This document shows positions 16,780 through 43,973 of a stretch of DNA of 47,562 nt, one piece after another; within the stretch, counting starts at the first letter, position 1, and each line of letters starts with the position of its first letter. The notes below the pieces were generated by a model. It was not told the origin of the DNA. It made no database searches and saw nothing but the letters and a program-made list of their open reading frames with translations. A program made the translations under genes and the position numbers. Source of the stretch: Pseudomonadota bacterium (lineage in GTDB: Bacteria; Desulfobacterota; Desulfovibrionia; Desulfovibrionales; Desulfovibrionaceae). The stretch lies in assembly GCA_018822105.1 (NCBI GenBank), contig JAHJLB010000003.1, positions 1 to 47,562 on the forward strand. Reading direction: 5' to 3'.

Positions 16780-16796
16780 GTGGCAATTATTTGGCG
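16780..16796 (+). promoter_or_regulatory. Weak sigma-54-like (-24/-12) promoter before the Maf operon
   Basis: TGGCA at 16781-16785 and GC at 16794-16795 have the obligatory 10-base spacing between GG and GC, but the rest matches the consensus only partly (8 of 14 defined positions by eye). The predicted transcript start near 16807 would fall at the ribosome binding site of the GTG 16817 start, so either the motif is fortuitous or translation begins further down. Confidence 0.25.
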
Positions 16797-16816
16797 CTTT
16801 GCGCAGGGGGAAGGCA

Positions 16817-18655: not shown

Positions 18656-19792
18656 ATGCTCGACCCTGCACAATACCGCCGCGAGGAGTCCCGGGCCAAG
18701 GCCCTGCTCCCGAACTGGCGTCTGGCCAGCCGCCACGGGGCCACCCTGTTCCAGCGGGTGGGCTTTCCCGTGCGCGTGGACTGCCTGGACGAACTGGGCA
18801 TGCTGCTCGACACCATGCAGGAGGGCCGCTTCGAGGCCATCCAGCAGGAGTTGGGCGGGCTCACCGAGGCCGAGCAGGAGCTGCTCATCCAGGCCCTGGC
18901 CGAGGCCGTGCGCTTCCAGCTGGCCCAGTTCGGCGGGCGCGCGCCCGTGCTGCCCCTGGACACGGTGACGGCCATGCTGGCCGGCTACCTCAAGCTGCAG
19001 GCCCTGGCCCCGGACTTCCGGCGCGTGCTGGAGGTGGGCCCAGGCTGCGGCTATCTGGCCCTGTTCCTGGCCCGGCACAAGCCCCTTGCCCGCTACGCCT
19101 CGGTGGAGGCCTGTGAGAGCTTCTACCTGCTGCAGCACCACCTGCTGGCGCACCTCTTCGGCGCGGGCTTCCGCGAGGAGCTGGCCTTGCGCGCCGCCTC
19201 AGCCCATTTCGACGCCGGCGCCTCCCCTGGCGAGGCGCTGCCGCTGCCCGAGGCCAAGGCCACGCACCACCCCTGGTGGCGGCTGGGCGACCTTGCTGCC
19301 CAGGCCGGGCAGTTCGACCTGGCGGTGTGCAACGCGGCCATGCTGGAATTCGAGCCCGAGGCCCTGCGCGACTACCTCGCCCTGTTCACCCGCGCCCTGG
19401 CCCCCGGCGGCCTGGTCGTGGCCCAGTGCTTCGGCTTCGAAACCCCGGAGCGCGACCGCGGCTACCTGCTGGCCGCCCTGCGCGAGGCCAGGCTGGCCCC
19501 GGCCTTCATCGCCTGGGGCGGACACCCAAAGGCGCGCGGATTCTGGCAGCAGCACTCGTCCGGCGACTGCCCTGATTGCGTATCGATAAGCGACGATAGG
19601 CGCTTCACCACGGCCCAGGGCGTGTTCGTGGCCGAAGGGCATCCCCTGTGGGAGCCGCTGTACAGGCCCGAGCACTACAGCATCCACCACCTTTCCGGCT
19701 TCGCGCCCCTGGCGCACTATTTTGCCCGGCCCCAAGGCGCGCGCATGCTCACCCGCCAGGAGGCGGCCCAGAGGGTGGCCCGTGCCCTCTAG
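18656..19792 (+). CDS. SAM-dependent methyltransferase, paralogue of the 28977-30146 product
   Basis: 378 residues; helical N-terminus, then the SAM-binding loop VLEVGPGCGYLALFLARHK, ASVEACESFYLLQHHLL, THHPWWRLGDL, FDLAVCNAAMLEFEPEAL and a C-terminal extension. The F-Y-L-x-Q-x-H-L and H-x-P-W-W motifs recur in the methyltransferase at 28977-30146, so the two form a family within the island. Likely a sugar O- or C-methyltransferase; the substrate is unknown. ATG at 18656 follows AGGAGG. The 3' end overlaps the next gene by 11 bp. Confidence 0.8.
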   Translation: MLDPAQYRREESRAKALLPNWRLASRHGATLFQRVGFPVRVDCLDELGMLLDTMQEGRFEAIQQELGGLTEAEQELLIQALAEAVRFQLAQFGGRAPVLPLDTVTAMLAGYLKLQALAPDFRRVLEVGPGCGYLALFLARHKPLARYASVEACESFYLLQHHLLAHLFGAGFREELALRAASAHFDAGASPGEALPLPEAKATHHPWWRLGDLAAQAGQFDLAVCNAAMLEFEPEALRDYLALFTRALAPGGLVVAQCFGFETPERDRGYLLAALREARLAPAFIAWGGHPKARGFWQQHSSGDCPDCVSISDDRRFTTAQGVFVAEGHPLWEPLYRPEHYSIHHLSGFAPLAHYFARPQGARMLTRQEAAQRVARAL

Positions 19793-21485
19793 CCCGGACC
19801 TCGCCACTGCGGCCCGGCGGGCGGACCTGCTGGCGCTCTTGGCCGTGGACCCGCGCTTCGAGGCCGAGCGCGCGGCCTGCGTTGCCCGCTGGCTGGACGC
19901 CCGGCCCCGGGGCGAGGTCGTGGCCCTGTTCGGCTGCGGCGGCCTGGGCCGCAGGCTGGCCCGCAGCCATGCCCCAAGCCTGCGCCGGCTTGCGCCCGTG
20001 TTCGTGTCCACCAAGGTCGAGAGCGGCGGATTCGAGGGCTTTCCCGCAACCGACGCCGCGGACCTGGCCCGGCGCCCGCCCCCGGCCGTGCTCCTGCTCT
20101 CCGCCACCTATGAGGACGAGATGCGCAGGGCCCTGCCCGGCATGCCCCCGGAACGCATCCTCTCCCTGCGCCAGGTGCTGCCCCTGGCGGCCCTGGACAC
20201 CGACCTGCCGCCCCTGTGGCGGGCCATGCAGGCCCGCGCCGGGGAGCTGTCCCAGCGCCTGGAGCGTGAGCTGCCGCCCGGCGCGCCGGCTGTCTGCTTC
20301 CTGCTGTCCAATTTCGGCAACCACGCCCTGGAGGTGCTGGCCCAGGTGCGCCAGGCCGGGTGGACGGTGGTCGCCGCGACCCACGCCGCCCCCCCCGGGC
20401 CCGAGGCTGCATTGCGCGCCCGCGGCCAGCTGGACCTGCTGCACGCCGAGCCCTCGCCCGAGGCCCTGCGCCTGGTGCTGGCCGCCCTCCTGGCCCAGGC
20501 CGCGCCCTTCCGGGCCGTGCACGCCTGGACGAGCTTCTCCAACCACGGCTTCCTGGCCGACCTGGTGCGCGCAGGCACGCCCCTGGTGGCCGCCGTGGAC
20601 GCCGCCCTGCCCCCCGTCATGGACAGCGCGGCCTTTGCTGAAACCTTGTGCGCCGAGCTCGGCGTGGACCGCGAGACGCTTCTGGCCGACTGGCGCACGG
20701 TGTACACCGGGGCGGCGGGCGTCATCAGCAAGGACTCCCCGGCCCTGGCCGAGCATTTCCAGCGCGAGCGCGGCGCGGTTCCGCGCCGCATGCTGCACCA
20801 GCTGCCCCCGGTGGGCCCGGCCCCAGGCCCCGACCCGGCCAGGGCGCGGCGGCAGGGGCCGGTGCGTTTGGCCTGCATCGCCAGCCTGCACCGCACGGCG
20901 CGCCGCGCCGGCCTGTTCAACATCCCGGACTTCCTGGACATGGTGCGCGGCTTCACCACACGCGGGTTCTCCCTCACGGCCATCAACAACCTGGACTCCG
21001 GCACGGGCGGCTGGGCCGACCTGGAAGACCTCGCCCGAACCGAGCCCCTGTTCGACTACCGGCCCCGCGTGGCCTTTGAGGACCTGCCCCGCGTGCTGGC
21101 GGACTTCGACTTCGGGCTGCTCTGGCACCATCCCCGGCTCTCGGCGCGGCTGCCCCTCGTCCACGCCACCAACCTGCAGACCAAGCTCCTGGTCCACGTC
21201 CAGGCGGACCTGCCCTCCCTGGTGCCTGCGGAGCTCTCCTGGTGCGCTGAGGTCGCGCGCGCGATGGGCCTGGGCCTGGTGTTCAGCCACGCGGACATGG
21301 ACAACCTCGGCACCATGCTTGCATCTTTCGACAGGGAGCGCTGTCTGGCCGCCCTTGCCGCCGCGCGCGCGCGCCTCGGCGTCAAAGCCCACGCGGCCCG
21401 GCTGGCCGCCTTCCTGCGCGAGGCCACGGATGATTTTGCCCCGCCCGGCCCGGACGGGCAGGGCACAGGAGCAGCACCCCGGTGA
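19782..21485 (+). CDS. Modular glycosyltransferase-like protein with N-terminal Rossmann module
   Basis: 567 residues. Residues ~35-140 form a nucleotide-binding-like module (VVALFGCGGLGRRLARSH, then AVLLLSATYEDEMRRALPG and ILSLRQVL). The remainder looks like a GT-B glycosyltransferase: VCFLLSNFGNHALEVLAQV opens one half-domain, and LACIASLHRTARRAGLFN, LFDYRPRVAFEDLPRVLADFDF and the later AMGLGLVFSHADMDNLG open and close the second. The product of 30791-32506 has the same order with matching motifs and is a paralogue. GTG at 19782 has GAGGG six bases upstream and overlaps the previous gene by 11 bp. Sugar and acceptor are unknown; the assignment rests on fold-like patterns, not a diagnostic motif. 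Confidence 0.65.
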   Translation: MPSSPDLATAARRADLLALLAVDPRFEAERAACVARWLDARPRGEVVALFGCGGLGRRLARSHAPSLRRLAPVFVSTKVESGGFEGFPATDAADLARRPPPAVLLLSATYEDEMRRALPGMPPERILSLRQVLPLAALDTDLPPLWRAMQARAGELSQRLERELPPGAPAVCFLLSNFGNHALEVLAQVRQAGWTVVAATHAAPPGPEAALRARGQLDLLHAEPSPEALRLVLAALLAQAAPFRAVHAWTSFSNHGFLADLVRAGTPLVAAVDAALPPVMDSAAFAETLCAELGVDRETLLADWRTVYTGAAGVISKDSPALAEHFQRERGAVPRRMLHQLPPVGPAPGPDPARARRQGPVRLACIASLHRTARRAGLFNIPDFLDMVRGFTTRGFSLTAINNLDSGTGGWADLEDLARTEPLFDYRPRVAFEDLPRVLADFDFGLLWHHPRLSARLPLVHATNLQTKLLVHVQADLPSLVPAELSWCAEVARAMGLGLVFSHADMDNLGTMLASFDRERCLAALAAARARLGVKAHAARLAAFLREATDDFAPPGPDGQGTGAAPR

Positions 21486-22813
21486 TCCACGACGTTCGAC
21501 AGATACCCCGCAGCGGCAGGGCCGCCATCTACGGCACCGGCGGCCGGGCCGCCAAGCTGCTGACGCTGCTGCGCCGACACCGGCCGGACATCGAGCCCGT
21601 GGCATTTCTGGACAGCGCACCCAGAAGCGCGGCCCACCTGGGGCTGCCCGTGTTCGCCGGAGCGGAGGCGGCACGCGCCGGGCACGACTTCGTCATCATC
21701 GCCGCCTATTGCTACGACCAGATCGCCCAGGTGCTGCGCGAGCACGGCGGGGCCAGACCGGTGCACATCTTTCTGGACCTGGAGGCCGCCACCCGGCCCA
21801 ATCCCCCCCGCGAGCCGGCCGACACGGCTCTGACCGGCGCCGTGCTGGCCCGCTGCGGCAGCCTGGCCGAGTTTCGGGCCGGTCTGCGCCGCCTGCCGGA
21901 CAAGCTCAACTTCACCCTGTCCAGCGACTGCAACTGCGCCTGCATCTTCTGCCCCTGCAGCAGCAGACCCCGCGGCGGGCAGTTTCTGGACCCGGCCCTG
22001 TTCCGGCGCATCGCGGCGCAAATGGCCGCCCTGGGCATTCTCGGCGCGGACTTCTCGCCCATCATGGGCGAAGGCCTGCTGCACCCGCGGTTCATGGATC
22101 TGCTTGAGGCCGCGCGCGAGACGGGCATGCGGGACATCCGCATCACCACCAACGGCACCCTGCTTCCGGCCGAGCCGGCCCAGGCCCGCAGGCTGCTCGA
22201 CCTGGCCGACGGCATTTCCGTCAGCAGCCCCGGCCTGGCGCCCGAGGCCTACCTGAAGGTCTTCCGCTCCGGCCGCTATGAAGCCGTCATGGCCGGGCTG
22301 GAGGCCCTGGGCCGGGCGAAGCTCGACGGGGCACTGGGCCGGGTGAACATCTGCCTGCGCACCTACCGGCCCTTCGAAGAAACCTTCGAGGACCAGGGGT
22401 TCCTTCGCCTGCTGCCGCTGTTCAAGGCGGGCGGCCTGTTTTTCGACCCGGCGGACGGGAGCATCGAGTTCGACACCTGGGCCGGGGCGGTGGACGCCGA
22501 AGCCTTCAGCGGCTCCATGCGCGTTGCCACCGGGGGCGCAAGGCCCGGCGAGCCGCCCTGCTGCATGCTCCTGGCCCCTGCCGCAACGGTGCTCCCGGAC
22601 GGCTTTTTGCGCCTGTGCCCCTGCCGCTACCAGGACGATCCGCACGACGAGCTGGTGCTGGGCAATCTGGCCGACGAACCCCTGGACGCCCTGCTCTTCG
22701 GCGAGGCCCACCGGGCCCTGGTGGAGCGCTGGTGCCGGGGCGAGCTGCCCCGCGTGTGCCGGGCCTGCGCCCTGTACGCCCCTCCCAACCCCGCCTGGAC
22801 CGGCGGCGCATAG
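21482..22813 (+). CDS. Radical SAM protein with N-terminal Rossmann module and SPASM-like end
   Basis: 443 residues. Residues ~1-100 are the island's Rossmann module (AAIYGTGGRAAKLL, AFLDSAPRS, GLPVF, DFVIIAAYCYDQI). The radical SAM core binds its cluster through Cys150, Cys154 and Cys157 (DCNCACIFCPC), followed by IMGEGLLHP and IRITTNGTLLP. The C-terminus has further cysteines (CCMLL, LCPC, CRACALYAP) as in SPASM/Twitch domains holding extra iron-sulfur clusters. GTG at 21482 overlaps the previous stop in GTGA. Context suggests radical chemistry on a sugar, lipid or peptide of the glycan pathway; the substrate cannot be read from sequence. Confidence 0.85.
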   Translation: MIHDVRQIPRSGRAAIYGTGGRAAKLLTLLRRHRPDIEPVAFLDSAPRSAAHLGLPVFAGAEAARAGHDFVIIAAYCYDQIAQVLREHGGARPVHIFLDLEAATRPNPPREPADTALTGAVLARCGSLAEFRAGLRRLPDKLNFTLSSDCNCACIFCPCSSRPRGGQFLDPALFRRIAAQMAALGILGADFSPIMGEGLLHPRFMDLLEAARETGMRDIRITTNGTLLPAEPAQARRLLDLADGISVSSPGLAPEAYLKVFRSGRYEAVMAGLEALGRAKLDGALGRVNICLRTYRPFEETFEDQGFLRLLPLFKAGGLFFDPADGSIEFDTWAGAVDAEAFSGSMRVATGGARPGEPPCCMLLAPAATVLPDGFLRLCPCRYQDDPHDELVLGNLADEPLDALLFGEAHRALVERWCRGELPRVCRACALYAPPNPAWTGGA

Positions 22814-22822
22814 GCAGGCCCC

Positions 22823-24127
22823 ATGCCCCTACCGAACCTGCGCGGCAAGACCATCAACGAGCCCCGGCTGCGGAGCTTCATGGACGAGCTGGACGCCCTG
22901 CGCCGGGCCAACCCCGGCCGGGCGCTGATCCTGTACTCGACCTTCAGCTTCAGCCACAACTACCTGAAGCTTCTGAAGCAGCTGCGCGCGGGCGGGGCGC
23001 TCATCGCCCTGCACCTGGCCGACGGCTTCATGTGCGGCACCGTGCCCCTGGCCAGCCTCTCCGGGCAGGGCTATTTCGACGCGCTTCTGGTGAGCAACCC
23101 CTACGTGCTGGAGCTGCCGTTCCTCGCCGAGCACTACCCCTTCGACGCCGTGCACGCCTCGGTGGGCACGGGCAGCCCCTACGCCTTCGCCGAGCTGACG
23201 CGCCGGGCCAACTGCCCGGTGATCATCGACTATTTCGACTTCCGCGAGGTCATGCACGGCGGGGACGAGGCCATCGGCAGGAACTTCGGCATCACGGACA
23301 TGGCCCTGGAGCTTTCGCTCTGGCGGCAGGTGTTCACCCAGGCCTCAGGCATCATATACCTGGACTCGCCCGAGGTGGTGGCCGACCTTGCCCGCGCCCA
23401 CGGCCACGAGCCCAAGGCCCTGCACTTCCAGTCCTACGTGCTCGACGAATGGCTGGCCCCGGACCCTGCGGCCCTGCGCGGCCAAGAGGACAGGCTGCCC
23501 CGCAGTATCGTCTTTGCCGGGGGGCTGCACAAACCAAAACAGCACGGCTTCGCCTGCCACGGCTCGTTCTTCGAGGGCATCCGGCGCGTGCTTGACCAGG
23601 GCTTCCCCTTCTGCGTCATCAACGGCTGCGACCCCGGCCACGGCGAGGGCTTCGCCTGCTACCTGGACCTGGCCCGCCAGCGCCCGGACTTCACCTACGA
23701 GCCCGCCCTGCCCAACGACCGCCTGGTCCCGCGCCTGGCGGGCTTCGAGCTCGGCTGGAACGCCCAGAACCTAGGCGAGGGCGCGGAGAAGCCCTACTAC
23801 TTCCGCACCCTCATGGGCTCCAAGCTCTACAACTACCTGGAGGCCGGGCTGCCCTGCGTGGTGGCCACGGAATCGGCCTATGTGGCGGACTTCGTGCGCC
23901 GGAAGAACATCGGCCTGGCCCTGGGCTGGGCCGACTGGGACCGCTTCGGCGAGATCGCCCGCCGGGCGGACTGGGCGGCCATCCGCGCCGGCGTGGCCCG
24001 CGTGCGCCGCGAGAGCACCATGGCCCGCCACGCCCCGCGCCTGTATTCCTTCTACAACGAGGTGGCCGGGCGGCGGCTCTTCGCGGCCCCGGACGGCCTG
24101 TGGCGGCAGGAGGGCGAGAGCCTGTGA
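22823..24127 (+). CDS. Glycosyltransferase, GT-B fold (GT4-like)
   Basis: 434 residues. N-terminal half: ALILYSTFSFSHNYLKLL and PVIIDYFDFREVMHGG. C-terminal half starts at SIVFAGGLHKPK and ends with SKLYNYLEAGLPCVVATESAY followed by NIGLALGW. That last motif is the donor-binding E-x(n)-G-x-P region of retaining GT-B enzymes. It is similar in layout to the 44783-46024 product, which has FSYLEAGLPVIVHTEAPY, so the two are probably paralogues. Starts nine bases after the radical SAM gene; its stop overlaps the next start in GTGA. Confidence 0.8.
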   Translation: MPLPNLRGKTINEPRLRSFMDELDALRRANPGRALILYSTFSFSHNYLKLLKQLRAGGALIALHLADGFMCGTVPLASLSGQGYFDALLVSNPYVLELPFLAEHYPFDAVHASVGTGSPYAFAELTRRANCPVIIDYFDFREVMHGGDEAIGRNFGITDMALELSLWRQVFTQASGIIYLDSPEVVADLARAHGHEPKALHFQSYVLDEWLAPDPAALRGQEDRLPRSIVFAGGLHKPKQHGFACHGSFFEGIRRVLDQGFPFCVINGCDPGHGEGFACYLDLARQRPDFTYEPALPNDRLVPRLAGFELGWNAQNLGEGAEKPYYFRTLMGSKLYNYLEAGLPCVVATESAYVADFVRRKNIGLALGWADWDRFGEIARRADWAAIRAGVARVRRESTMARHAPRLYSFYNEVAGRRLFAAPDGLWRQEGESL

Positions 24128-25293
24128 TCCGCATCGACGGACAGGACCGCACCGTGCTGGCCTGGATACCCGCCCGCGGCGGGTCCAAGGGCCTGCCCCG
24201 CAAGGCTTTGCTCGACCTCTGCGGGCGTCCCGTGCTGGCCTACACCATCGAGGCGGCCCTGGCCGCGCCGGGCATGGACCGGGTGCTGGTGAACACCGAC
24301 GACGAGGAGATCCGCGCGCTGGCCCTGGCCCTGGGCGCGGAGGTCCCCTTTCTGCGGCCCGCGCACCTGGCCCAGGACGACTCCGGCCTGGAGGGCGCGC
24401 TGGACTACCAGTGGGCCTGGCTTAAGCAGCACGAGGATTTCGCTCCGGACATCCACGTCGGCATGAGCCCCACCCACCCCTACCGCCTGCCCGGCAGCCT
24501 GGCAGAGGCTTTGCAGCTGGCGGCGGCCGATGAACTGGTGGTCAACGTGCGCAGCGTGGCGCCCACCCGGCTCGACCCGGCCAACTGCTGGCAGCGCGGC
24601 GCGGAGGGTCTGCGACGTTTTTTGCCTGCGGACGCGGCGGGCGGCCTGGGCGGTGTCCTGCAAAACCTTTTCGCCTTCAACGTGGTGCTGGAGTGCCGCC
24701 GCCACCTGTTCTATTCCGAGCGGCACCGCCGCCCCCTGCCCCTGGTGCTGTCTCCGCTGGAGGGCCTGGACCTGGACGAGCCCCAGGACCTGGACTTGGC
24801 CCGGCTGGCCCTGGCAGGACAGCGCCCGTCGGCTGCCCGCGCCTGCGGAGCCGAAGCCCAGGGCTGCCTGGTCGTGCTGGGCAAGGCCTTCCCCGCGCCG
24901 CAGGGGCCGGGACCACACCTGCTGCGCCACCCGGACTTTCCCGCCATCGGCGAAGCGGAGGTCGCGGCCTTTGCCCTTGAGTTGGCGCGCTCCGAGCGCG
25001 TGCTGGTGAGCGGCTGCCGCATTCAGGAGGACGCGCACCCCTACCGGCTGTTCCGCCAGGCCGAGGACGGCCGGCTGGACTATCTGCTAGACGTTCCGCA
25101 GGAGATCCGCGGGGCGCGCCAGCGCTACCCCGAGCTCTTGCGCTTCGTGCCCGGCCTCGTGGGCCTGCCCGAGGGCCTGCCGCTCGGCGTCCTGGACCAC
25201 CCCGAAGACTTCACCCTGTTCGAGCTGCCGCGCGAGCGCCTGCTGGACGCGGGCGACCCGCTGGAGCGGCTGGAGCTGCCCGGCCAGCGCTGA
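24124..25293 (+). CDS. CMP-acyl-sugar synthetase (acylneuraminate cytidylyltransferase family) with C-terminal extension
   Basis: 389 residues, against about 230 for a usual NeuA/PseF/LegF enzyme. Residues ~10-230 are a complete cytidylyltransferase: LAWIPARGGSKGLPRKAL (CTP-binding P-loop-like), TDDEEIRALA, MSPTHPYRLPGSL and LEGLDLDEPQDLDLA. They activate a nonulosonic acid as its CMP derivative, the donor for the Maf-type transferase in the same operon. The extra ~160 residues contain DAHPYRLFRQAEDGRLDYLL and RGARQRYPELLRF, which resemble the middle of the same family, suggesting a partial duplication. GTG at 24124 overlaps the previous stop. Which nonulosonic acid is used cannot be told. 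Confidence 0.88.
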   Translation: MIRIDGQDRTVLAWIPARGGSKGLPRKALLDLCGRPVLAYTIEAALAAPGMDRVLVNTDDEEIRALALALGAEVPFLRPAHLAQDDSGLEGALDYQWAWLKQHEDFAPDIHVGMSPTHPYRLPGSLAEALQLAAADELVVNVRSVAPTRLDPANCWQRGAEGLRRFLPADAAGGLGGVLQNLFAFNVVLECRRHLFYSERHRRPLPLVLSPLEGLDLDEPQDLDLARLALAGQRPSAARACGAEAQGCLVVLGKAFPAPQGPGPHLLRHPDFPAIGEAEVAAFALELARSERVLVSGCRIQEDAHPYRLFRQAEDGRLDYLLDVPQEIRGARQRYPELLRFVPGLVGLPEGLPLGVLDHPEDFTLFELPRERLLDAGDPLERLELPGQR

Positions 25294-25327
25294 TTTCCAC
25301 CACCCCATGCACCGCAGCGAGGAAAAC

Positions 25328-26401
25328 ATGCTTTCATCCGACCTGGACCGCATTGCCGACCGGGGCATCACCCTGGAACAGACCAGCTTTCCCTTCCAGC
25401 GCATCGCCATTTACGGCGCCGGGGGCCGGGGACGCGCCGTGGCCCGGCGGCTCCTGTCCCAGGGGGTGGCCGTGGAGTGCTTCTTCGACGGCGACCCGGC
25501 CAAGCGCGGCTTGCGCATCGACGGCCTGGAGGTGCTGGGGCGCGAGGACCTGCGGGGTCGGCCGGAGCTGCCGGTGCTCATCGCCAGCTTCTGGCGCGAG
25601 GACATCCTCTTTGAGCTGCGGGAGGGCGGCTTCCCCAACGAACTCTACTGGATGCGCCTGAGCAATTCCTACGTGCCGGATTTTCTGGAGCTCTACGGCA
25701 CGGAGGCCGAGAGGTTCCACAATCTCCTGGCTGACGAGGAGTCGCGCCTGGTGTACGCCTCCATCGTCAAGTCCGTGGCCCTGGGCAACGCGGGCTACCA
25801 CCGGGTTTCGCCCTACCCTCAGTATCGCCACCCCCTTGCGCTGCCCGCTCCGGGCGATGTGGTGGTGGACGGGGGCGCATTTTCCGGCGACACGGCGCAG
25901 ATGTTCCTGGGCGTCTGCCCGGACTGCCAGATCCACGCCTTTGAACCGGACCCGGTGGTGCATGCGCTGCTTGAGGCCAACATCGCCGCCAAGGGTCTTT
26001 CCGAGCGCGTGACCCCGCACCGGCTGGGGCTCTGGGAATCCAGCACCCGGCTCTCCTTCAGCCTGTCCGACAGCCAGGGCTCCCACATCACCGCCCAGGG
26101 CGGCGAGGCCGACGGCACCGTCATCGAGACCGTGGCCCTGGATGATTTCGCCACGCAGACAGGGAGCCGCATAGACTTCATCAAGCTCGACATCGAGGGT
26201 GCGGAGCTGGCCGCCCTGCGCGGGGCCGCCGGGGTCATCCGGAAGTTCCGCCCCAAGCTCCAGGTCTGCCTGTACCACAAGGCCCTGGACTGCGTGGAGC
26301 TGCCGCTCTTCCTCCTCGAGCTTGCCCAGGGCTACCGCTTCTACGTCGGCCACCATGGCTCCGCAGAAACGGACTCCGTGCTTTACGCCGTGCCGGAATA
26401 G
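25328..26401 (+). CDS. FkbM family methyltransferase with N-terminal Rossmann module
   Basis: 357 residues. Residues ~24-120 are the island's Rossmann module: RIAIYGAGGRGRAVARRLL, ECFFDGDPAKRG, GLEVLGREDL, PVLIASFWREDI, close to the PglD N-terminal pattern. Residues ~170-357 are an FkbM methyltransferase: VVVDGGAFSGDTAQMF (SAM loop), IHAFEPDP, IDFIKLDIEGAELAAL. FkbM enzymes are O-methyltransferases of polyketides and sugars. ATG at 25328 follows GAGGA; ATG 25307 is an alternative without a good binding site. Last gene of the plus-strand operon, followed by the bidirectional terminator. Confidence 0.88.
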   Translation: MLSSDLDRIADRGITLEQTSFPFQRIAIYGAGGRGRAVARRLLSQGVAVECFFDGDPAKRGLRIDGLEVLGREDLRGRPELPVLIASFWREDILFELREGGFPNELYWMRLSNSYVPDFLELYGTEAERFHNLLADEESRLVYASIVKSVALGNAGYHRVSPYPQYRHPLALPAPGDVVVDGGAFSGDTAQMFLGVCPDCQIHAFEPDPVVHALLEANIAAKGLSERVTPHRLGLWESSTRLSFSLSDSQGSHITAQGGEADGTVIETVALDDFATQTGSRIDFIKLDIEGAELAALRGAAGVIRKFRPKLQVCLYHKALDCVELPLFLLELAQGYRFYVGHHGSAETDSVLYAVPE

Positions 26402-26416
26402 CCTGCCCACGCTCAC

Positions 26417-26464
26417 CACGAAACAGCGCGGGCCATGTCTTTCGGCATGGCCCGCGCTTTCGTG
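26417..26464. terminator. Bidirectional Rho-independent terminator between converging operons
   Basis: Thirteen-bp perfect arms (26425-26437, AGCGCGGGCCATG; 26446-26458) around an eight-base loop, extended by outer CACGAA/TTCGTG pairing. Short T/A runs flank the stem. It lies in the 82 bp between the stops of the two converging operons, where a shared terminator is expected. Confidence 0.85.
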
Positions 26465-26483
26465 CGTGGATGCGGCGTGAATT

Positions 26484-27692
26484 CTACCGGGCGTACCAGG
26501 CCTCGACCTTCGCTATTGCCGCCAGCACGTCCGATATCTCCTGCTCGCCGTAGCGCTCGTTGACGTACAGGTTGAAGGAGCGGTCACGCATGGACAGGGC
26601 GTTCTTCGTCACGAAGTCGTCAGCGAAATAGCTCTTGGCGAAATCCCAGGAGTTGACCACGCAGCCGTAGTGCTCGCCCAGGCCGATGCCCTCCGCGGCC
26701 ACGGCGCGGGCGAACTCGGTCTTGGTGCAGGTGATGGCGCCCTCGTCCACCAGGATGGGGAAGTAGAAGGGCGAGCAGCCGGGGTCGGCCTTGGACGGAC
26801 GGCAGACGCGGCTGGCCCTGGGCAGCTCTGCGCACAGCCGCCGCAAAAACTCGCGCCGGGCGGCCACGGCCTCGTCCAGCCGCGCCAGGGACGCGATGCC
26901 GATGGCGCAGGACAACTCGTCGGTGTTGAAGTTCAAGGCCGGGAACAGGGCATGGCCGGGATCGCGCAGGTCCAGGTCCTTGCGCCAGGAGGGCTTGCCG
27001 CGGTCGGCGTGGGCCAGGGCCTGGCGGTACGTCTCCTCTGTGGGCGAATAGACAAGGCCCCCGCTGGCTCCGGCGGTGAGGGACTTGCGGTACATGGTGG
27101 AGAAGGCCGCGATGTCGCCGTAGACGCCCACGCGCCGGCCCTTCCACAACGCGCCCGGGGCCTGGCTGCAGTCCTCCAGCACCTTGATGCCGCGCGCGTG
27201 CGCCGCCTCCACCATCTCGTCGATGGCCAGGGGCTGGCCCGCGCTGTGCACGGCCAGCACGCCCGTGGTGCGGCTGGTGAAGCGGCTGGTCAGCTGCTCC
27301 AGGCCCATGTTGTAGTCGTCCGGGGCGGAGTCGGCCAGGACGGGCACCAGGCCGAGCATGATGATGCAGTTCAGCGGGCCGGAGTCCGTCACCGGGGAGA
27401 TGATGACCTCGCTGCCCTTGGGCAGGCCCAATGCGGCCAGGGCCACGAACACCGAGGCCGTGCCCGAGGACACGGCGTCGGCGAAACCGCCGCCCTGGAA
27501 CTCGGCGAAGCGGCGGCAGAACTCCTCCTCATAGCGGCCCTGGTAGGGCGGGTCCTCCTGGCGCGCGGCGTAGTGGTCCGCCGCCTCCAGAAGGGCCTGG
27601 CGCTCGGCCGGGCCAAAGGCCAGGCGCGGCGGCATGGGGGTCTTCCGGAGCTTTTCTCCGCCGTGGAGGGCGAGGGTCTGGCGGGTGGTCAT
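26484..27692 (-). CDS. DegT/DnrJ/EryC1/StrS family sugar aminotransferase
   Basis: 402 residues, typical length. PLP-site residues are visible: SSGTASVFVALAALG (phosphate loop), EDCSQAPGA with Asp174, and the Schiff-base Lys203 in FSTMYRKSLTAGASGG, a variant of the usual F-S-x-x-x-x-K motif. These enzymes transaminate keto-sugar nucleotides, for example on the way to amino sugars or nonulosonic acids. The formyltransferase at 30168 could act on the resulting amine. Last gene of the 18-gene minus-strand operon; its start overlaps the previous stop by 4 bp (ATGA). Confidence 0.92.
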   Translation of the reverse strand: MTTRQTLALHGGEKLRKTPMPPRLAFGPAERQALLEAADHYAARQEDPPYQGRYEEEFCRRFAEFQGGGFADAVSSGTASVFVALAALGLPKGSEVIISPVTDSGPLNCIIMLGLVPVLADSAPDDYNMGLEQLTSRFTSRTTGVLAVHSAGQPLAIDEMVEAAHARGIKVLEDCSQAPGALWKGRRVGVYGDIAAFSTMYRKSLTAGASGGLVYSPTEETYRQALAHADRGKPSWRKDLDLRDPGHALFPALNFNTDELSCAIGIASLARLDEAVAARREFLRRLCAELPRASRVCRPSKADPGCSPFYFPILVDEGAITCTKTEFARAVAAEGIGLGEHYGCVVNSWDFAKSYFADDFVTKNALSMRDRSFNLYVNERYGEQEISDVLAAIAKVEAWYAR

Positions 27693-28966
27693 GCGTTCTC
27701 CTTGGGCTCTGCCAGGGCCGCGTAGTCCGCGGCGGCGGCGTTGAAGATCTCGCGCAGGGCGGCGGCGTGCCCTGCGTAGGCCGGAACCCCGGCGGCCCAG
27801 CCCAGCACCTCGAAGGCGTATTCCTGCTGGTGCGCGGCCTCGGCCAGCACCACGAGCCGGAGCAGCCGCTCCAGGGGAGGGGCCTCGGAGGCGGGCGCGG
27901 CCAGGGGGTCGCGGAAATAGTAGGCGTCGGAGGCCACCAGCTGGCCCATGTGGTCGGCGCAGCGGGGGATGGTCGCCACATCCACCGGGCAGGCCGTGCG
28001 GCCCACCCCGCGCGCGCCAAAGGCGCTCAGGCCGAAGAAGCTCAAGCCCTCGGCGCGCAGGAACCGGTCGACCTCGGAAAAGAGCGGGATGCCCTTGTGG
28101 TACGGCGCGAACCAGACCTCGACCTTGGCCGCCAGCAGCCCCGGCAACAGCGAGCGGGCGCCCTTGAGCACCTCCAGCTCCGCGCCCTGCACGTCGAGCT
28201 TGGCAAAGTCCACCTCGCCCAGGCCCAGTTTGGGGGCCAGGTTGTCCAAGCAGTCCACCCGCACGGTGGTTTCAACAAAGCCCGCAAGCGTGTCCAGCAG
28301 GCCGGTGGTGCCCTCCGGGGTCTGATAGCGCAGGCGCCCGAGAAGCTCCGTGTTGAAGGGGAAGCAGGAACAGGCCAGCAGCGGGTCTGTGGTGTGAAAG
28401 GGAATAGTCCCCGGCGCGCTCCACAACCCCACCGGGGTCATGACGCAGCGCGCGCCCAGGAGCCTGGCCTTCTCCTCCACCCGGCGGCACTCCTCGGCGT
28501 CGGGGTCGAAGCCGTAGATGTCCAGCCGCTCCGGGTCCAGGTGCTCCCATTCCTGCGGCGCCGCTTCGGCCAACTCCTCTCGGGCGCCTATGTCCAGAAT
28601 GGTGATGCGCCCCGGCGCAAGGCCGCTGGCGAAGACGCGCCCGGCCAGGATGCGCACGGGCGAGGGGTCAAAGACAAGGAGGCGCTCCACCCCGGCCCGG
28701 GCCAGATCCGGCACGATGGCCCGGTAGTGCGTGGAGCAGACCACCACGGTTTGGCCCGCAGGGGCGAAGCCGCGCAGGAACTCCTCGCGCGTGAGCACCG
28801 GCAGGCCACGGAACTCCCCGGACTTGAAGCTGTCCACCAGGACCTTCACCTGCGCCAGGCGCCCGGCGGCGTCCAGGGCGTCCAGCAGTTCCCCGGCGCG
28901 GCCCCCGGCCCCGTAGATGCTGATCTCCCCGGCGGGGATCTCCTGTGCGGTGTTGATGAAACGCAT
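27689..28966 (-). CDS. FkbM family methyltransferase with Rossmann module and C-terminal helical domain
   Basis: 425 residues in three parts. Residues 1-105: MRFINTAQEIPAGEISIYG, GAGGRAGELLDAL, VLVDSFKSGEFRGLPVLTRE, TVVVCSTHY (Rossmann module). Residues ~115-350: ITILDIGAREEL, DIYGFDPDAEE, DFAKLDVQGAELEVLKGA (FkbM core). The end, ~370-420 (ERLLRLVVLAEAAHQQEYAF), is helical and has a clear counterpart in the 36798-38072 product. The SAM loop reads LDIGARE, as in that paralogue and unlike the DGGAFSG of the 25328 gene. Probably a sugar O-methyltransferase. Confidence 0.85.
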   Translation of the reverse strand: MRFINTAQEIPAGEISIYGAGGRAGELLDALDAAGRLAQVKVLVDSFKSGEFRGLPVLTREEFLRGFAPAGQTVVVCSTHYRAIVPDLARAGVERLLVFDPSPVRILAGRVFASGLAPGRITILDIGAREELAEAAPQEWEHLDPERLDIYGFDPDAEECRRVEEKARLLGARCVMTPVGLWSAPGTIPFHTTDPLLACSCFPFNTELLGRLRYQTPEGTTGLLDTLAGFVETTVRVDCLDNLAPKLGLGEVDFAKLDVQGAELEVLKGARSLLPGLLAAKVEVWFAPYHKGIPLFSEVDRFLRAEGLSFFGLSAFGARGVGRTACPVDVATIPRCADHMGQLVASDAYYFRDPLAAPASEAPPLERLLRLVVLAEAAHQQEYAFEVLGWAAGVPAYAGHAAALREIFNAAAADYAALAEPKENA

Positions 28967-28976
28967 CGACTGCCCC

Positions 28977-30146: not shown

Positions 30147-30167
30147 GGGCGCAACCCTCCGTCGGTT

Positions 30168-30809
30168 CTATTCGTAAAGCTTGGTGCCGTACCGGGCGGC
30201 AAAGGCCACCGGATCCGCGCGGTACTCGCGCCCCAGTTCGGCCACAAAGGCCACCGGGGTCTGCCAGCGCTGGGGGCACAGGGCCAGGAGCCGGTCGCTC
30301 ATGCGCCTGTTGTGGAAGGAGCCCGCACCCTCAAGGCTCGACTGCGGAACGCGCGGCGCCGTTCCGGCGGCTATGGCCTCCCACCACTCCATGAACAATC
30401 GCTCCAAGGCGTCCATGAGAACATCCCAGGAGCTTTGCAGGGTCTCGTCCAGGCCAAGGGGCACCGCCTGGCGCACGATGACCTCGCCGGTGTCCACCCC
30501 GGCGTCTATGCTGTGCAGGGAAACCCCCTTGGGGGTGTCCTCGAAGAAGCTCCAGACGTTGCCCATGAGCCCGCGGCCCCAGGGCAGGTAGGTGTTGTGC
30601 AGGTTGATGATCCGGCCCGCGAAGGCGTCCACCACCGGGGGCTTGATGATGGGCCCGTAGCCGTGGATGACCATGAAGTCTGGCGCCAGCTCCTGCGTCA
30701 GCTCCGGGGTCAGCGGGCCGGAATATTCCGAAACCCTGCCGGCGCAGGACGTGAGAAAATCCTTGATGCGGCTGGTGCGCGGGGCTCCGGTCAAAAGCAG
30801 GACATGCAT
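30168..30809 (-). CDS. Formyltransferase family protein (probable sugar N-formyltransferase)
   Basis: 213 residues with the formyltransferase catalytic triad: Asn69 and His71 in INLHNTYLPWGRG and Asp106 in SIDAGVDTGEV. Family members use N10-formyltetrahydrofolate to formylate an amine. The short length, without the C-terminal tRNA-binding domain of Fmt, and the glycan context favour an amino sugar as acceptor, perhaps made by the aminotransferase at 26484. ATG at 30809 has AGGAGG seven bases upstream and overlaps the previous gene by 19 bp. Confidence 0.85.
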   Translation of the reverse strand: MHVLLLTGAPRTSRIKDFLTSCAGRVSEYSGPLTPELTQELAPDFMVIHGYGPIIKPPVVDAFAGRIINLHNTYLPWGRGLMGNVWSFFEDTPKGVSLHSIDAGVDTGEVIVRQAVPLGLDETLQSSWDVLMDALERLFMEWWEAIAAGTAPRVPQSSLEGAGSFHNRRMSDRLLALCPQRWQTPVAFVAELGREYRADPVAFAARYGTKLYE

Positions 30810-34110: not shown

Positions 34111-34111
34111 G

Positions 34112-35386: not shown

Positions 35387-35409
35387 GGGTCGTTCCTTCC
35401 GGGGCTCGT

Positions 35410-35526
35410 CTAGAACAGAGGATAGAGGTCTTTCGGGTTGGCCTTGCGCTTGCGCCGCTGGACCACGGTGTATCCGATGACTGCTGCGACAAATCCTGCA
35501 ATGCAGACGATGATGGCGATATACAT
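35410..35526 (-). CDS. 38-residue single-span membrane protein
   Basis: A short frame that a length cutoff would miss. It has a well-placed ribosome binding site (AGGAG eight bases upstream of ATG 35526), one hydrophobic helix (IAIIVCIAGFVAAVIGYTVV) and a basic tail (QRRKRKANPKDLYPLF), giving a predicted N-out, C-in topology. It sits in line with its operon neighbours, 23 bp before the SGNH gene. Tiny proteins of this kind can stabilise membrane complexes; the function is unknown. The match of start, binding site, helix and charge makes chance unlikely but not excluded. Confidence 0.6.
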   Translation of the reverse strand: MYIAIIVCIAGFVAAVIGYTVVQRRKRKANPKDLYPLF

Positions 35527-35628
35527 GGCCCCTTCTCCTGAATGAATCTATTTGACCTCTTCTCCAAACACGCTTTCCCGGAGGGCTTCCCCGTCAACTC
35601 GCCTCGGAAGCGCCCCGCATGATGCCCG

Positions 35629-36453
35629 CTACGCCTTGCGCGCAAGAAACACAAAGAACCCGGGGAAATACTCTCCCTTCGCAAGCCGTTTCTGCGCAAG
35701 GGCCGTGTAGCCGGGCTCCAAGGCATCCAAGTCTGTCGGCCTGTCAAAGGGCTTGAACCCGTTGATAGAAGAGGAGACAAGCTCTAACCCCTCTTCCTGA
35801 AGAAGGGCTGTCATTTCCCTCTGGGTATGTTGCGTCTCGTGTGGGTGACAGACCTGATCCCGGAACCAGGACAAGAGCATTGTTTCATCATCTTTGAGCG
35901 CCCGGTGCAGCTTCTTGTATTCCCGAAGCAGCTCTCCCTCAGAACGCCCCGCCTCTTTCAACATTTGGAAATGCGCGAGAAACGGCTGTCTGCCGTAACT
36001 ATGGTACAGGCCAATAAAGGCGTAGCCTCCCGAGCTTAAACAATTTCGCGAAAGATGGCGCACTGCCTCATGGCAGTCGTGGGTATGGTGCAAAACACCG
36101 AGAGACACCACCAGGTCGTAGGGCTGTTCCGCTGAATAGGCGAAGAGGTCGGCAACCTGGAACTCCACTGAAAGCCCAAGGATAGCCGCCGCGGCCTTGG
36201 CTTGGCGGATCGCTTCCGGGTTGAAATCTATTGCGGTTACCTTGGCGCCATAATGATAGGCCATGCGGTTGGCGATCCTCCCCACTCCACACCCGATTTC
36301 CAGGACGCGGAGGTTGGGCTTGAGCAGCGCAGCCAAAGGTCCATACGCCTCTATCGAATTGGACTCGGAAATCTCGCGCGCCAGCACTTCCGGTGAATCC
36401 GCGGAGTTGAATGGGAGCGTTTGATAAAACTCCAGCACACGCTTTGCAATCAA
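35629..36453 (-). CDS. SAM-dependent methyltransferase, low G+C, probably acquired
   Basis: About 274 residues. VLEFYQTLPFNSAD begins the protein much like other small glycan-cluster methyltransferases; the SAM loop is RVLEIGCGVGRIANRMAYHYG, followed by AIDFNPEAI, DLVVSLGVLHHTHDCHEAV and a C-terminal lobe with GFKPFDRPTD. I chose TTG at 36453 because AAGGAGG lies eight bases upstream and no ATG fits. By hand count G+C over 35821-36060 is 53%, clearly below the neighbours (for example ~65% around 37021). Together with the truncated gene directly upstream this suggests a recombination junction near 36500. Confidence 0.8.
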   Translation of the reverse strand: MIAKRVLEFYQTLPFNSADSPEVLAREISESNSIEAYGPLAALLKPNLRVLEIGCGVGRIANRMAYHYGAKVTAIDFNPEAIRQAKAAAAILGLSVEFQVADLFAYSAEQPYDLVVSLGVLHHTHDCHEAVRHLSRNCLSSGGYAFIGLYHSYGRQPFLAHFQMLKEAGRSEGELLREYKKLHRALKDDETMLLSWFRDQVCHPHETQHTQREMTALLQEEGLELVSSSINGFKPFDRPTDLDALEPGYTALAQKRLAKGEYFPGFFVFLARKA

Positions 36454-36488
36454 CTTTCCTGCCTCCTTTCCACCGCACTCTGGCAATA

Positions 36489-36758
36489 TCAGGTCTGCGC
36501 CGGTCCAACCACACAACGGTCCCCGCCCCAGGAGAGCAGCTCGCGCCCCAGGTCGAAGCTGACCACCAGTTCGTCCAGGGACACCACAGGCAGGCCGCGG
36601 AACTCGCCGCACTTGTAGGTGTCGGCGAAGCGGCGCACCCGCGCGCGCTGGGCCAGAGCTTCGAACTTCGACAGCAGATAGGCTCCGGCCCCGCCTGCGC
36701 CGTCGATGCAGACGTCCAGGCCTGCCGGCAGTTGTTCTGGTCTGGTGATGTTGGCCAT
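36489..36758 (-). pseudogene. Truncated stand-alone Rossmann module (remnant of a modular gene)
   Basis: An 89-residue frame with a good start (ATG 36758, AAGGGA upstream). MANITRPEQLPAGLDVCIDG, AGGAGAYLL and FADTYKCGEFRGLPVVSLDE align with the first ~75 residues of the FkbM fusions at 27689 and 36798 (compare MRFINTAQEIPAG and MRHITSVGQLPQG). After that, identity is lost and the frame stops at 36489 without the second half of the module or any catalytic domain. It is best read as the 5' remnant of a third such gene cut by import of the low-G+C methyltransferase. A functional small protein cannot be excluded. Confidence 0.65.
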
Positions 36759-36797
36759 GATTGTCCCTTGGCGTTGGTTGCAGCAAATGCGGGCGCG

Positions 36798-38072
36798 TCA
36801 ACGCCCGAAAGTCTCCTGATAGCCCTGCGCCGCGCTGTCGATGACCCCGCGCAAGGCGTCGGCGCGGGCGGTGTCGCCCTGGCCCCGGAAGCGGGCCTCG
36901 GCCCAGGCCAGGACCTCGAAGGCGAACTCCACCTGGAAGTAGCGCTCCGCCAGGGCGGCCAGCTTGAGCACCTTCTCGAAGCTGAAGACCGCCAGGTCCT
37001 GTCCTTGCAACTCCAGGGCCACGGGGTCGCGCAGATACAGCGCGTGGGACTCCACCAGCTGGCCGTGCCAATGGTGGAAGCCGGGCAGAAGCCGCGTGCT
37101 CACCGGAGAGGCGTTGCGGCCCACGGTGAGCGGGCTGATGAACTCGAAAAACGTGAAGCCCCGGCTGCGCAGCCACCGGTCCACCTCGGAAAACAGCGGC
37201 CGGCCCTGGTAGTTCTCCACAAAGGCCACCTCGGCGAGCAGGCCCACCACCTCGGGCAGCACGCTCTCGCCCGCGCGCAGGATCTCGAGCTCCGCACCCT
37301 GCACGTTGAGCTTCATGAAGTCCACCGAGGCCACGGCCTGCTCGACCCGCCAGTGGTCCAGGGTGGAGAGCTCCACCGTCATATCGCGCACCGGGCGGAT
37401 GAACCGGCCCTCGTGGCGCACGGCCTGGTCGGCGGAGATCTTCCAGCGGTCGAAGACCTCGAAGTTGAAGGGGTAGAACGAGCTGCTGCCGGGGTGGCCC
37501 TGGCTGAAATGAAAGGTCCGCCGCCCGCGCGCGCCCCACAGGCCGTAGGGGAAAAACCGGGCCTCCATGCCGCTTAAGCTCATCGCACGGGCCATCTCCG
37601 CGCAGCCCTCCTCGTCCAGCTCAAAGCCGTAGAGACGCATGCGCTCCGGCGGAATGCCCAGCCAGCGGGGATCGCTGGTGGCGTCGCGCGCGCCGATGTC
37701 CAGCAGGGTGAAGCGCTCGCCCTCGGGCAGGAGTTCGCAGAGCAGGTTGCAGAGGATGTAGCGGCTGCTGTCCTTGAACGAGCAGAAATCCGTCAGTCCG
37801 GCCTGGCGCAGGGCCCAGGAGATCTCGTCGTCGTGGGTGGAGGCGATGACGATGGGGCCGTCGCCGCCGGGATGCGCGGCCAGAAAGTCCGCGAAACGCT
37901 CCACGGGCAGGCCGTCCAACTCGCCGCTCTTTGTGGAGTCCAGAAAGCGCAGGGCGCGCACCCGGGTCGAGGCGCGCACCTGGCGCAACAGCTCGCGCCC
38001 GGCCCCGCCTGCGCCGTAGATGCTGATGCTGGCGCCCTGGGGCAGTTGTCCGACGCTGGTGATATGGCGCAT
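36798..38072 (-). CDS. FkbM family methyltransferase with Rossmann module and C-terminal helical domain
   Basis: 424 residues, same three-part plan as the 27689 product. Module: SISIYGAGGAGRELLRQV, LRFLDSTKSGELDGLPVE, PIVIASTHDDEISWALRQAG. FkbM core: FTLLDIGARDATSD, MRLYGFELDEEG, VDFMKLNVQGAELEIL and GQLVESHALYLRDPVAL. C-terminal helices: VLKLAALAERYFQVEFAFEV onward. ATG at 38072 has GGAG nine bases upstream. Probably a sugar O-methyltransferase; the pair may act on successive or alternative positions. Confidence 0.87.
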   Translation of the reverse strand: MRHITSVGQLPQGASISIYGAGGAGRELLRQVRASTRVRALRFLDSTKSGELDGLPVERFADFLAAHPGGDGPIVIASTHDDEISWALRQAGLTDFCSFKDSSRYILCNLLCELLPEGERFTLLDIGARDATSDPRWLGIPPERMRLYGFELDEEGCAEMARAMSLSGMEARFFPYGLWGARGRRTFHFSQGHPGSSSFYPFNFEVFDRWKISADQAVRHEGRFIRPVRDMTVELSTLDHWRVEQAVASVDFMKLNVQGAELEILRAGESVLPEVVGLLAEVAFVENYQGRPLFSEVDRWLRSRGFTFFEFISPLTVGRNASPVSTRLLPGFHHWHGQLVESHALYLRDPVALELQGQDLAVFSFEKVLKLAALAERYFQVEFAFEVLAWAEARFRGQGDTARADALRGVIDSAAQGYQETFGR

Positions 38073-38100
38073 ATGTCCGTGCTCCGTGGCTGCGGCGGCC

Positions 38101-40745: not shown

Positions 40746-40759
40746 GGCGGCCTCAGCTC

Positions 40760-41869: not shown

Positions 41870-41885
41870 GTGGTTCCTCCCGGAA

Positions 41886-42779: not shown

Positions 42780-42782
42780 GTC

Positions 42783-43973
42783 TTATGCTCCCAGGTCGGA
42801 CGTGGTGCCGTCCGCGCGCAAGATTGTTGACCAGGGCCGCAACACCGCAAAACCGCTGCCGGCACCCAGCGCCCGCAGCCTGGCCTCCATGCGGCCCAGC
42901 ACGCAGGCATTGTTGGAGCACAAAAGCACCAGGTCGCCGGCCTGCGGGACGGCAATGCGCTCGAGCCCGAACACGGGCTCGCGCTCCGCCTCCAGGGCGT
43001 CGTCCAGCACCGCGCGCGGGCAATCGTCCAGGAGCCGCGACAGCTCGCGGTACAGGGCGCGGAAACAGTTGTAGGCGCCAAAAAACACCACCCGGCCCCT
43101 GGCCTGGGCGTGCGCGGCCAGAATCCTTTGGCCCCGCTCCCGGCCCCGGACCAGGCGCGCCAGGCCGCTGACGGCCTCGGCGGCGGCGATTTCCCCGCCC
43201 GCAGGCAAGGCGAACCCGTCCGGCCCCGGCAGCTTGCGCGCCGCCACGCGCAGGGAGCCCGCCTCCTGCGCCTCCAGGATCTCGTAGCCCGCCAGCACGC
43301 CTTGCAGGGTCGAAAGCGTGTAGTAGGCCGCGTGCTCCAGGAGAAAGGCGTCGGTGCGGCCCTCCAGAATCCGCGCGAGATTCGGCACGTCGAGGTACAG
43401 CGTGCCGCCGTCCTTCAGCACCTGGCGCGCGCCCGCGAGCATGGGCCTGGGGTCGGCGTAGTGCTCCAGCACCTGCTTGAGGATGACCGTGTCAAAGGAT
43501 GAGGCGAAGAGCTCCGGCGCGAAGAAGGCCCGCAGGGTCGGCACGGCCAGGCCGCTGTGCGCCGCCGGGTCCACGCCCAGGACGCTGGCCTGGGGCAGCA
43601 GCTCCTTGACCAGGGCCAGGACGTCGCCCCGGTTGGAGCCGATCTCCAGCACGCTGGCGTCGGGCCGGGAATGCCGGGCGATCATGGCCGCGGCGGCCAG
43701 GTTGTCCTCGCTCTTGCGCGGAAAGGCGAACAGGGGCTGATCGTCCCAGGACTCGTAGGCGTGGCGCATGAACGCCGCGTAGCCGGGGTCCAGCGCGCCC
43801 TGCTGGAACACGAACCCGCAGGACCCGCAGACGGCGATCTCCAGGGCGCGGCTGGCGTCAGACGAGGCCAGGCGCGCCTCGGGGAGGCTCAGGGCCGTGC
43901 GGCACCCCGCCGCCCCGCACAGGGGGCAGGGGTGGGCGGTGAGCCCCGGTGTCCTGTGCGCCGCGTCGGCCAT
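42783..43973 (-). CDS. Sugar C-methyltransferase-like protein with zinc-binding N-terminus and C-terminal Rossmann domain
   Basis: 396 residues in three parts, as in TylC3/NovU-type sugar C-methyltransferases. N-terminal zinc-binding part: Cys16, Cys19 (PCPLCGAAG) and Cys49, Cys52 (VCGSCGFVF). Middle: ASVLEIGSNRGDVLALVKEL, FDTVILKQVLEHYADPRPM, GGTLYLDVPN. C-terminal: VVFFGAYNCFRALYRELS, VLDDALEAEREPVFGLERI, DLVLLCSNNACVLGRMEARL. That last part has the same strand order as the Rossmann modules fused to other island enzymes. ATG at 43973 has AGGAG eight bases upstream. It probably makes a branched or C-methylated deoxysugar. Confidence 0.85.
   Translation of the reverse strand: MADAAHRTPGLTAHPCPLCGAAGCRTALSLPEARLASSDASRALEIAVCGSCGFVFQQGALDPGYAAFMRHAYESWDDQPLFAFPRKSEDNLAAAAMIARHSRPDASVLEIGSNRGDVLALVKELLPQASVLGVDPAAHSGLAVPTLRAFFAPELFASSFDTVILKQVLEHYADPRPMLAGARQVLKDGGTLYLDVPNLARILEGRTDAFLLEHAAYYTLSTLQGVLAGYEILEAQEAGSLRVAARKLPGPDGFALPAGGEIAAAEAVSGLARLVRGRERGQRILAAHAQARGRVVFFGAYNCFRALYRELSRLLDDCPRAVLDDALEAEREPVFGLERIAVPQAGDLVLLCSNNACVLGRMEARLRALGAGSGFAVLRPWSTILRADGTTSDLGA

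Follow-up and report, generated by a model that had tools for sequence, protein, structure and literature searches.

The window analysed here, a stretch of 47,562 nucleotides (G000:C44:1-47562; GC 0.687) from a 3.17-Mb genome in 63 contigs, carries from about position 16730 an island that is, by its gene content, of the flagellin-glycosylation type (Table 1). A Pfam-type domain search finds in it an MptE-like (MAF-type) protein, methyltransferases, glycosyltransferase (GT)-like proteins and radical SAM enzymes, together with a cytidylyltransferase, a DegT aminotransferase, a formyltransferase, a GLF protein, an epimerase, a TylF-type methyltransferase and a GT2 protein; MAF proteins act on flagellin. 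A groundwater Desulfovibrio sp. MAG (L060; FkbM 80% identical) is the closest relative that has a name, and the closest relative used in the comparisons is G014, a genome of the window's genus. Best matches to 22 island proteins lie there in conserved order, on the other strand, the exceptions among the 25 being G, O and P. Three FkbM genes were found in the window's genome, all of them within the island and all carrying the N-terminal module that is the subject of this study. Four GT-B-like proteins (19782-21485, 22823-24127, 30791-32494 and 44783-46024) are mutually related, two with the module and two without, and none matches a Pfam family at E ≤ 0.01. The proteins B (18656-19792) and J (28977-30146), one per island half, are likewise paralogues (E about 1e-16); B has weak methyltransferase matches and J has none. 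The formyltransferase (30168-30809) is 213 aa long and its counterpart in the groundwater MAG (L060:15412-16587) 391 aa, the extra C-terminal part of which, in our reading of the sequence, may be an acetyltransferase.

Table 1. Features of the glycosylation island, in window coordinates
Feature	Position	Strand	Basis or remark
A, MptE-like (MAF-type) protein, first gene of island	16730..18631	+	domain search
C, GT-B-like; paralogous to L and, outside the module, to E and X	19782..21485	+	pairwise phmmer, Pfam search
Module of C; strand-2 Asp absent (FVSTK)	19899..20192	+	pairwise phmmer, profiles, alignment
D, radical SAM/SPASM enzyme, N-terminal module	21482..22813	+	PF04055 58.3 bits, PF13186 24.7 bits
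Module of D	21500..21796	+	pairwise phmmer, profiles
F, cytidylyltransferase (CTP_transf_3)	24100..25293	+	domain search
G, FkbM methyltransferase, N-terminal module	25328..26401	+	PF05050 70.2 bits; solved relative 2py6
Module of G	25385..25693	+	pairwise phmmer, profiles, sub-cut-off PglD_N
I, FkbM methyltransferase, N-terminal module	27689..28966	-	PF05050 36.2 bits
Module of I	28631..28945	-	pairwise phmmer, profiles, sub-cut-off PglD_N
L, GT-B-like protein, N-terminal module	30791..32494	-	pairwise phmmer, Pfam search
Module of L; missed if training excludes GT rows	32075..32377	-	phmmer, own-module profile, alignment
Stretch without DNA match at the corresponding G014 place	35476..36552	-	flanks 80% and 77% identical
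O, class I methyltransferase	35629..36453	-	GC 0.558; TTG start behind GGAGG; Pfam search
P, stub gene	36489..36758	-	first 75 residues 75% identical to start of intact G014 module-FkbM gene
Q, FkbM methyltransferase, N-terminal module	36798..38072	-	full-length model pLDDT 86.3, pTM 0.85
Module of Q	37737..38051	-	pairwise phmmer, profiles, predicted structure
V, C-methyltransferase-like protein	42783..43973	-	solved relative D-mycarose 3-C-methyltransferase 4rv9 (match confined to residues 41-227)
C-terminal domain of V, distant module relative	42786..43181	-	profile-profile comparison

A common pattern had been predicted at the start of six proteins (three FkbM methyltransferases, a radical SAM enzyme and two GT-B-like proteins), and pairwise and held-out profile searches agree that it is there. 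When the 25 island proteins are compared pairwise by phmmer, with no profile used, modules on different enzymes find each other (D-Q, E = 9e-8; C-Q, 1.4e-7; G-Q, 3e-6), I matches the stub P (2e-12), and L is linked through its paralogue C over the whole length (4e-65). For a less circular test, profiles were built from 25-26 of 41 module segments, with the window and G014 excluded and one enzyme class omitted per run (unclassified rows were kept), and were searched against the 298 six-frame ORFs of the window. Profiles without FkbM rows recover the window's FkbM modules at 61.6, 56.7 and 53.3 bits, the profile without radical SAM rows recovers the radical SAM module at 56.1 bits, and the one without GT rows recovers C at 21.7 bits (E = 2.6e-6), with L not recovered among these ORFs. 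The stub scores 34-40 bits in all four runs; besides modules and stub, no window ORF exceeds 12.5 bits, the next best in each run being an epimerase at 9.6-12.5 bits. The scores therefore reflect real homology, with the GT copies the most diverged, and these comparisons confirm that the six proteins share one homologous N-terminal domain of ~85-100 residues, predicted to be Rossmann-like.

The original prediction had regarded a profile that matches every Rossmann protein equally well as an argument against itself. Searched against the window's genome, a profile of the island's own modules, which is circular, gives 108-121 bits for the six modules and 32 for P, followed by 23.8, 23.2, 14.9 and 13.9 bits. 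A broad profile of 40 of the 41 segments (one long-insert GT copy of G014 was omitted) gives 64-108 bits for the modules and 51 for P, followed by a 206-aa frame elsewhere in the genome that we read as Rex (47.2 bits) and a 628-aa CapD-like frame (39.0 bits, and 23 with the own-module profile). Because the Rex- and CapD-like frames fall below the modules, the profile prefers modules but grades into the superfamily; it does not match all Rossmann proteins alike, though such frames reach 47 bits.

Two of the eight places first named as modules require comment. At 36489 the module had been thought to stand alone as a truncated gene; the gene is indeed truncated, but it covers only the beginning of the module (positions 1-56 in a model of 100 positions, or 3-63 in one of 112). 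DNA homology to G014 stops at window position 36553 and resumes at 35475, with 1,077 bases between, and O occupies the place of the remaining part of the FkbM gene in G014, where the gene is intact. The GC content of O is low compared with the 0.65-0.75 of nine other genes measured. As judged from these alignments, the low-GC methyltransferase O appears to have replaced the FkbM catalytic part, leaving the module stub P; O looks foreign, and from its composition we infer a probable foreign origin. We also considered, and set aside, a P-O fusion broken by a frameshift, since O starts independently at a TTG behind GGAGG and sits in the stretch that has no match at that place in G014. A swap of O for FkbM may alter the glycan.

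The other place is the end of V, which had been likened to the module. In profile-profile comparison it matches the module at 88.8% over 76 columns, whereas the best of 15 control regions reaches 65.9% over 31 columns, the next 29.6% and the others under 3%; the kinship is distant, and visible at profile-profile level only. It has no pairwise phmmer match among the 25 island proteins, is absent from the 86 members of the iterated module search described below, gives no match at E ≤ 10 to the class-omitted profiles, and has no line at E ≤ 1 for Methyltransf_14 (PF08484), whose gathering score it does not reach. Seven of the eight places accordingly hold, one of them as a remnant, and the eighth is a distant relative.

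Modelled alone, the module of Q is predicted to adopt a nucleotide-binding-type Rossmann fold (pLDDT 89.3), and a fold search with this model returns seven PDB matches at E ≤ 0.001 with TM scores to the query of about 0.5-0.6. The original prediction had also counted unrelated folds against itself; the one module modelled, alone and inside its protein, is predicted to be Rossmann, and for the others sequence homology stands in. The best fold matches are NAD(H) proteins (biliverdin reductase and Rex), and CapD/WbaP-type domains and 3nkl, named as a UDP-D-quinovosamine 4-dehydrogenase, rank high in fold and in sequence alike, but these are parts of other enzymes; the full-length model of Q has no full-length PDB match among the 50 Foldseek matches listed. 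When the 40-row profile is compared with the PDB, Rex (5zz5) is the best match at E = 1.7e-8, closely followed by 3nkl at 2.1e-8, the PglD-type chains 4m9c (2e-6) and 4m98 (7e-5), and VioB (0.006). Rex is a transcriptional repressor, unlike the glycan enzymes that carry the module.

Kinship to the N-terminal domain of PglD, as first suggested, is borne out by these PglD-type chains and by sub-cut-off scores for PglD_N (PF17836; NeuD/PglB/VioB acetyltransferases), which is found in the three window FkbM proteins at 15.1-20.7 bits, below its gathering score of 23.4, and is not listed at E ≤ 1 for C, D, L, P and V. The two domains have in common the fold type, the glycine-rich loop and the strand-2 Asp, but the second Asp and the loop Ser of PglD are not kept in the module; and where PglD continues with a left-handed beta-helix (hexapeptide) acetyltransferase, the window modules are followed instead by FkbM, radical SAM or GT-B-like parts. 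PMC8040287 describes the N-terminal domain of a PglD-type enzyme as a platform for UDP, with one Asp contacting the ribose and the next the uracil. In the 4m9c alignment, the module Asp falls on the ribose-contact Asp.

A second relative is Methyltransf_14, the C-terminal domain of C-methyltransferases, which overlaps C-terminal modules of C-methyltransferases in other genomes (at L048:17759-19084 it scores 33.6 bits against a cut-off of 23.5 over residues 320-421, with the module at 343-428); the window modules, in contrast, are N-terminal and sit on other enzymes. The C-methyltransferase TcaB9 reportedly has its sugar-nucleotide site in the C-terminal domain. In addition, database lines and alignments for PDB 2py6 ("Methyltransferase FkbM") indicate a match of its FkbM part to G at E = 2e-17 and of residues 52-117 to the module profile at E = 4e-4, so that the FkbM-plus-module layout already exists in a solved structure, in one protein. 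We conclude that the module belongs with the PglD_N, Methyltransf_14, CapD and Rex domains, and is an unannotated branch of the PglD_N/Methyltransf_14/CapD-type Rossmann superfamily.

The module is not confined to this island; it is also present in islands of related genomes. A profile of the six window modules has a match at E ≤ 0.01 in 38 of the 59 genomes searched (its own included), the weak ones of which may be CapD-like. Iterated searching of fetched, hit-rich loci yields 44 of 2345 ORFs; a larger set of loci raises this to 93 of 3583, and an E-value and length filter keeps 86 of these. The loci were picked for good matches, so the counts of clusters and partners describe a selected sample, and the last iteration lets in one true PglD and one WbsX protein. 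A broad count over the phylum (136 of 395 genomes, E ≤ 1e-6) is not taken as a module count, because many of the weaker matches are 600-700-aa (CapD-like) or ~206-aa (Rex) frames, as read by length alone. A single-sequence search within the fetched stretches finds MAF-like ORFs in 8 of the 33 contig regions listed (G002, G004, G006, G009, G012, G014, G034 and, weakly, G021) and none in the 20 loci of the second selection.

The 86 ORFs carry the module at the N or C terminus of FkbM proteins, radical SAM proteins, other methyltransferases, DUF268 proteins, sulfotransferases, GTs, WbsX and others, a spread over enzyme classes that is established; in the C-methyltransferases, the module lies at the C end. 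Among the 25 of 41 Pfam families shown (E ≤ 0.001), FkbM accounts for 19 ORFs, radical SAM for 18, Methyltransf_11 for 17, Methyltransf_14 and PglD_N for 6 each (at least one of the latter a true hexapeptide PglD), DUF268 for 3, and Glycos_transf_1 and GT9 for 2 each, with single WbsX, citrate-lyase-ligase and hexapeptide proteins. Two module proteins are sulfotransferases, and an SGNH-type partner is weaker, below cut-off. The partners are thus mainly enzyme families common in glycan clusters, although some (citrate-lyase-ligase-like, TPR, HTH) are not glycan enzymes by name. The module is optional on FkbM, being absent from 27 of the 31 FkbM ORFs in 30 loci that represent the best FkbM matches of 99 genomes across the phylum (one of the four with module is the window's G), and the window's own paralogues E and X (GT-B-like) and R (radical SAM) are without it. 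Module-radical SAM ORFs, identified with a local profile (23-40 bits; one also by Pfam at 24.5 bits, sub-cut-off), also stand in runs, with four ORFs in G335:C38 (L095), three in G258:C4 (L101), and three adjacent with a fourth nearby in G281:C89 (L098), in each case near a C-methyltransferase-type ORF with a C-end module. There are also two seemingly complete free-standing module frames, G203C108:42176-42562 (L096:14176-14562) and G381C1:2054818-2055219 (L108:10821-11222); the latter has a hydrophobic tail and precedes an ORF that, as we read it, resembles a flagellin.

In an alignment of 84 modules, whose classes rest partly on seed profiles and 11 of which are unclassified, the strand-2 Asp is kept in 91%: 19 of 19 FkbM, 17 of 18 radical SAM, 9 of 9 C-methyltransferase, 5 of 5 methyltransferase and 3 of 3 DUF268 copies. 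The GT-type modules have it in 2 of 8, with a loop Cys common to all eight. Most copies combine a GxGxx[GA] loop with the Asp, and most FkbM and radical SAM copies have Gly or Ala in the last position; GT and C-methyltransferase copies often depart from the pattern of a GxGxxG-type loop plus acidic residue. Outside the GT class, the Gly and Asp are nearly invariant. At the position of the second PglD Asp the modules mostly have Ser, Thr, Gly or Asn, and at that of the loop Ser mostly Gly; window copies with the Asp have Ser, Thr or Gly and Gly, respectively. The Asp is present in six of the seven window modules (P counted), C being the exception, and is also missing from the G014 counterpart of the window's radical SAM module. 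The presumed nucleotide loops of the window differ: Q and I have DS.KSG, G has DGDPAKRG, D has DSAPRS and L has DGSAQA.

A module tree of 82 rows (two with too few columns were dropped) and 78 columns leaves 39 of its 79 inner branches open. The enzyme-class labels require 34 changes on it compared with 55 in shuffles, a clustering that near-copies alone can produce; FkbM alone needs 10 changes for its 18 rows, and a single group with support 100/99 holds all eight GT copies. Two starred sister pairs unite different enzymes of one genome, a sulfotransferase and a TPR protein in G336 and a DUF268 protein and a methyltransferase in G001. From the clustering of labels with few such pairs it follows that swaps happen but are not the rule at the tree's resolution, and the modules tend, as far as their sequences tell, to follow enzyme class rather than island. 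Identity to the copy on the same enzyme type in G014 is 87, 71 and 66% for three window copies, and recent duplication among the window modules was rejected for the resolved copies, whose nearest kin are in G014; the module of G has no counterpart in the G014 region compared, and its placement on the tree is unresolved. Same-genome pairs from different classes are more alike than permutations, with values as high in 36 of 1000 for the loop and 7 of 1000 for the other columns. The comparison does not show a ligand loop common to each island: likeness of the loop (columns chosen by us) beyond that of the rest of the domain is not clearly raised within genomes (68 of 1000).

What does the module do? 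We give an even chance to the reading that the copies are substrate-recognition domains, each holding the nucleotide of the activated sugar on which its enzyme works. With its glycine-rich loop and strand-2 Asp the module would bind ribose and phosphates of this nucleotide, and the sugar part would be left for modification by the enzyme joined to it, be that a methyltransferase, a radical SAM enzyme, a sulfotransferase or another; every enzyme would have a separate copy, adapted to the substrate of that enzyme and passed on with the enzyme more than with the island, and the GT copies, having diverged, may now be mainly structural. We infer nucleotide binding, a sugar on that nucleotide and its access to the active site because homologous domains act in nucleotide-sugar enzymes (PglD-type, VioB, Methyltransf_14), because the conserved Asp falls on the ribose-contact Asp of PglD, and because the partners are mainly glycan-cluster families on which the module is optional. 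Counting against the activated-sugar reading are the loss in most copies of the base-contact Asp and loop Ser of PglD, as aligned; the NAD(H) proteins at the top of the fold and sequence matches, with moderate TM scores; and the scarcity of the Asp in GT copies, its absence from the G014 radical SAM copy and the presence of some non-glycan partners.

Those NAD(H) matches, together with the loop and Asp of most copies and the 47-bit frame read as Rex in the window's genome, are what a domain that binds NAD(H) in the manner of Rex, for redox sensing or to stabilise its enzyme and with no role for a sugar, would lead one to expect. The near-equal match to a UDP-D-quinovosamine 4-dehydrogenase and the PglD-type chains argue against it, as does the fact that no named partner class is an NAD enzyme (among the 25 of 41 families shown, with 11 of 84 modules unclassified), and we consider it unlikely. 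Loss of the Asp in six of eight GT copies, and the FkbM ORFs and island paralogues that do without the module, would also suit a domain with a structural or dimerisation role and, in many copies, a relict ligand site; the near invariance of Gly and Asp outside the GT class makes this improbable.

The adapter of the original prediction, taken as a protein- or carrier-binding module that gathers the island's enzymes around one intermediate, likewise draws on real features: several copies per island, recurring elsewhere, the raised likeness of modules on different enzymes of one genome, the two sister pairs and the free-standing frames. A single shared intermediate is not supported, given the differing loops within the window, the rarity of the Asp in GT copies and the grouping by enzyme class, with three window copies close to same-enzyme copies in G014 and no clear excess of likeness in the loop; we therefore regard an adapter of this kind as quite unlikely. 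Preferring the activated-sugar reading, we consider the first interpretation sensible but over-specific: this is a known superfamily in new use across many glycan-type enzymes.

In the open-access full-text literature searched, no account of such reuse of a module was found. Two surveys of flagellin-glycosylation islands (PMC4875605, PMC5109656) name FkbM methyltransferases, and the main text of neither contains any of the terms "Rossmann", "PglD", "N-terminal domain", "radical SAM" or "fusion". It is conceivable, if on balance doubtful, that the module is an unnamed mobile grip for nucleotide sugars, used on at least eight catalytic families, at either protein end, in the glycan islands of one phylum, with new sugar-modifying enzymes arising by its pairing with a fresh catalytic domain and free-standing copies perhaps acting in trans. 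Pfam cut-offs leave the window copies unannotated, and the profile lists module proteins easily. If the module grips activated sugars, such enzymes would act on nucleotide sugars before transfer, and the stage at which many unassigned methyltransferases, radical SAM enzymes and sulfotransferases of glycan clusters meet their substrate could be read from sequence; if true, this would show how glycan islands assemble new tailoring enzymes.
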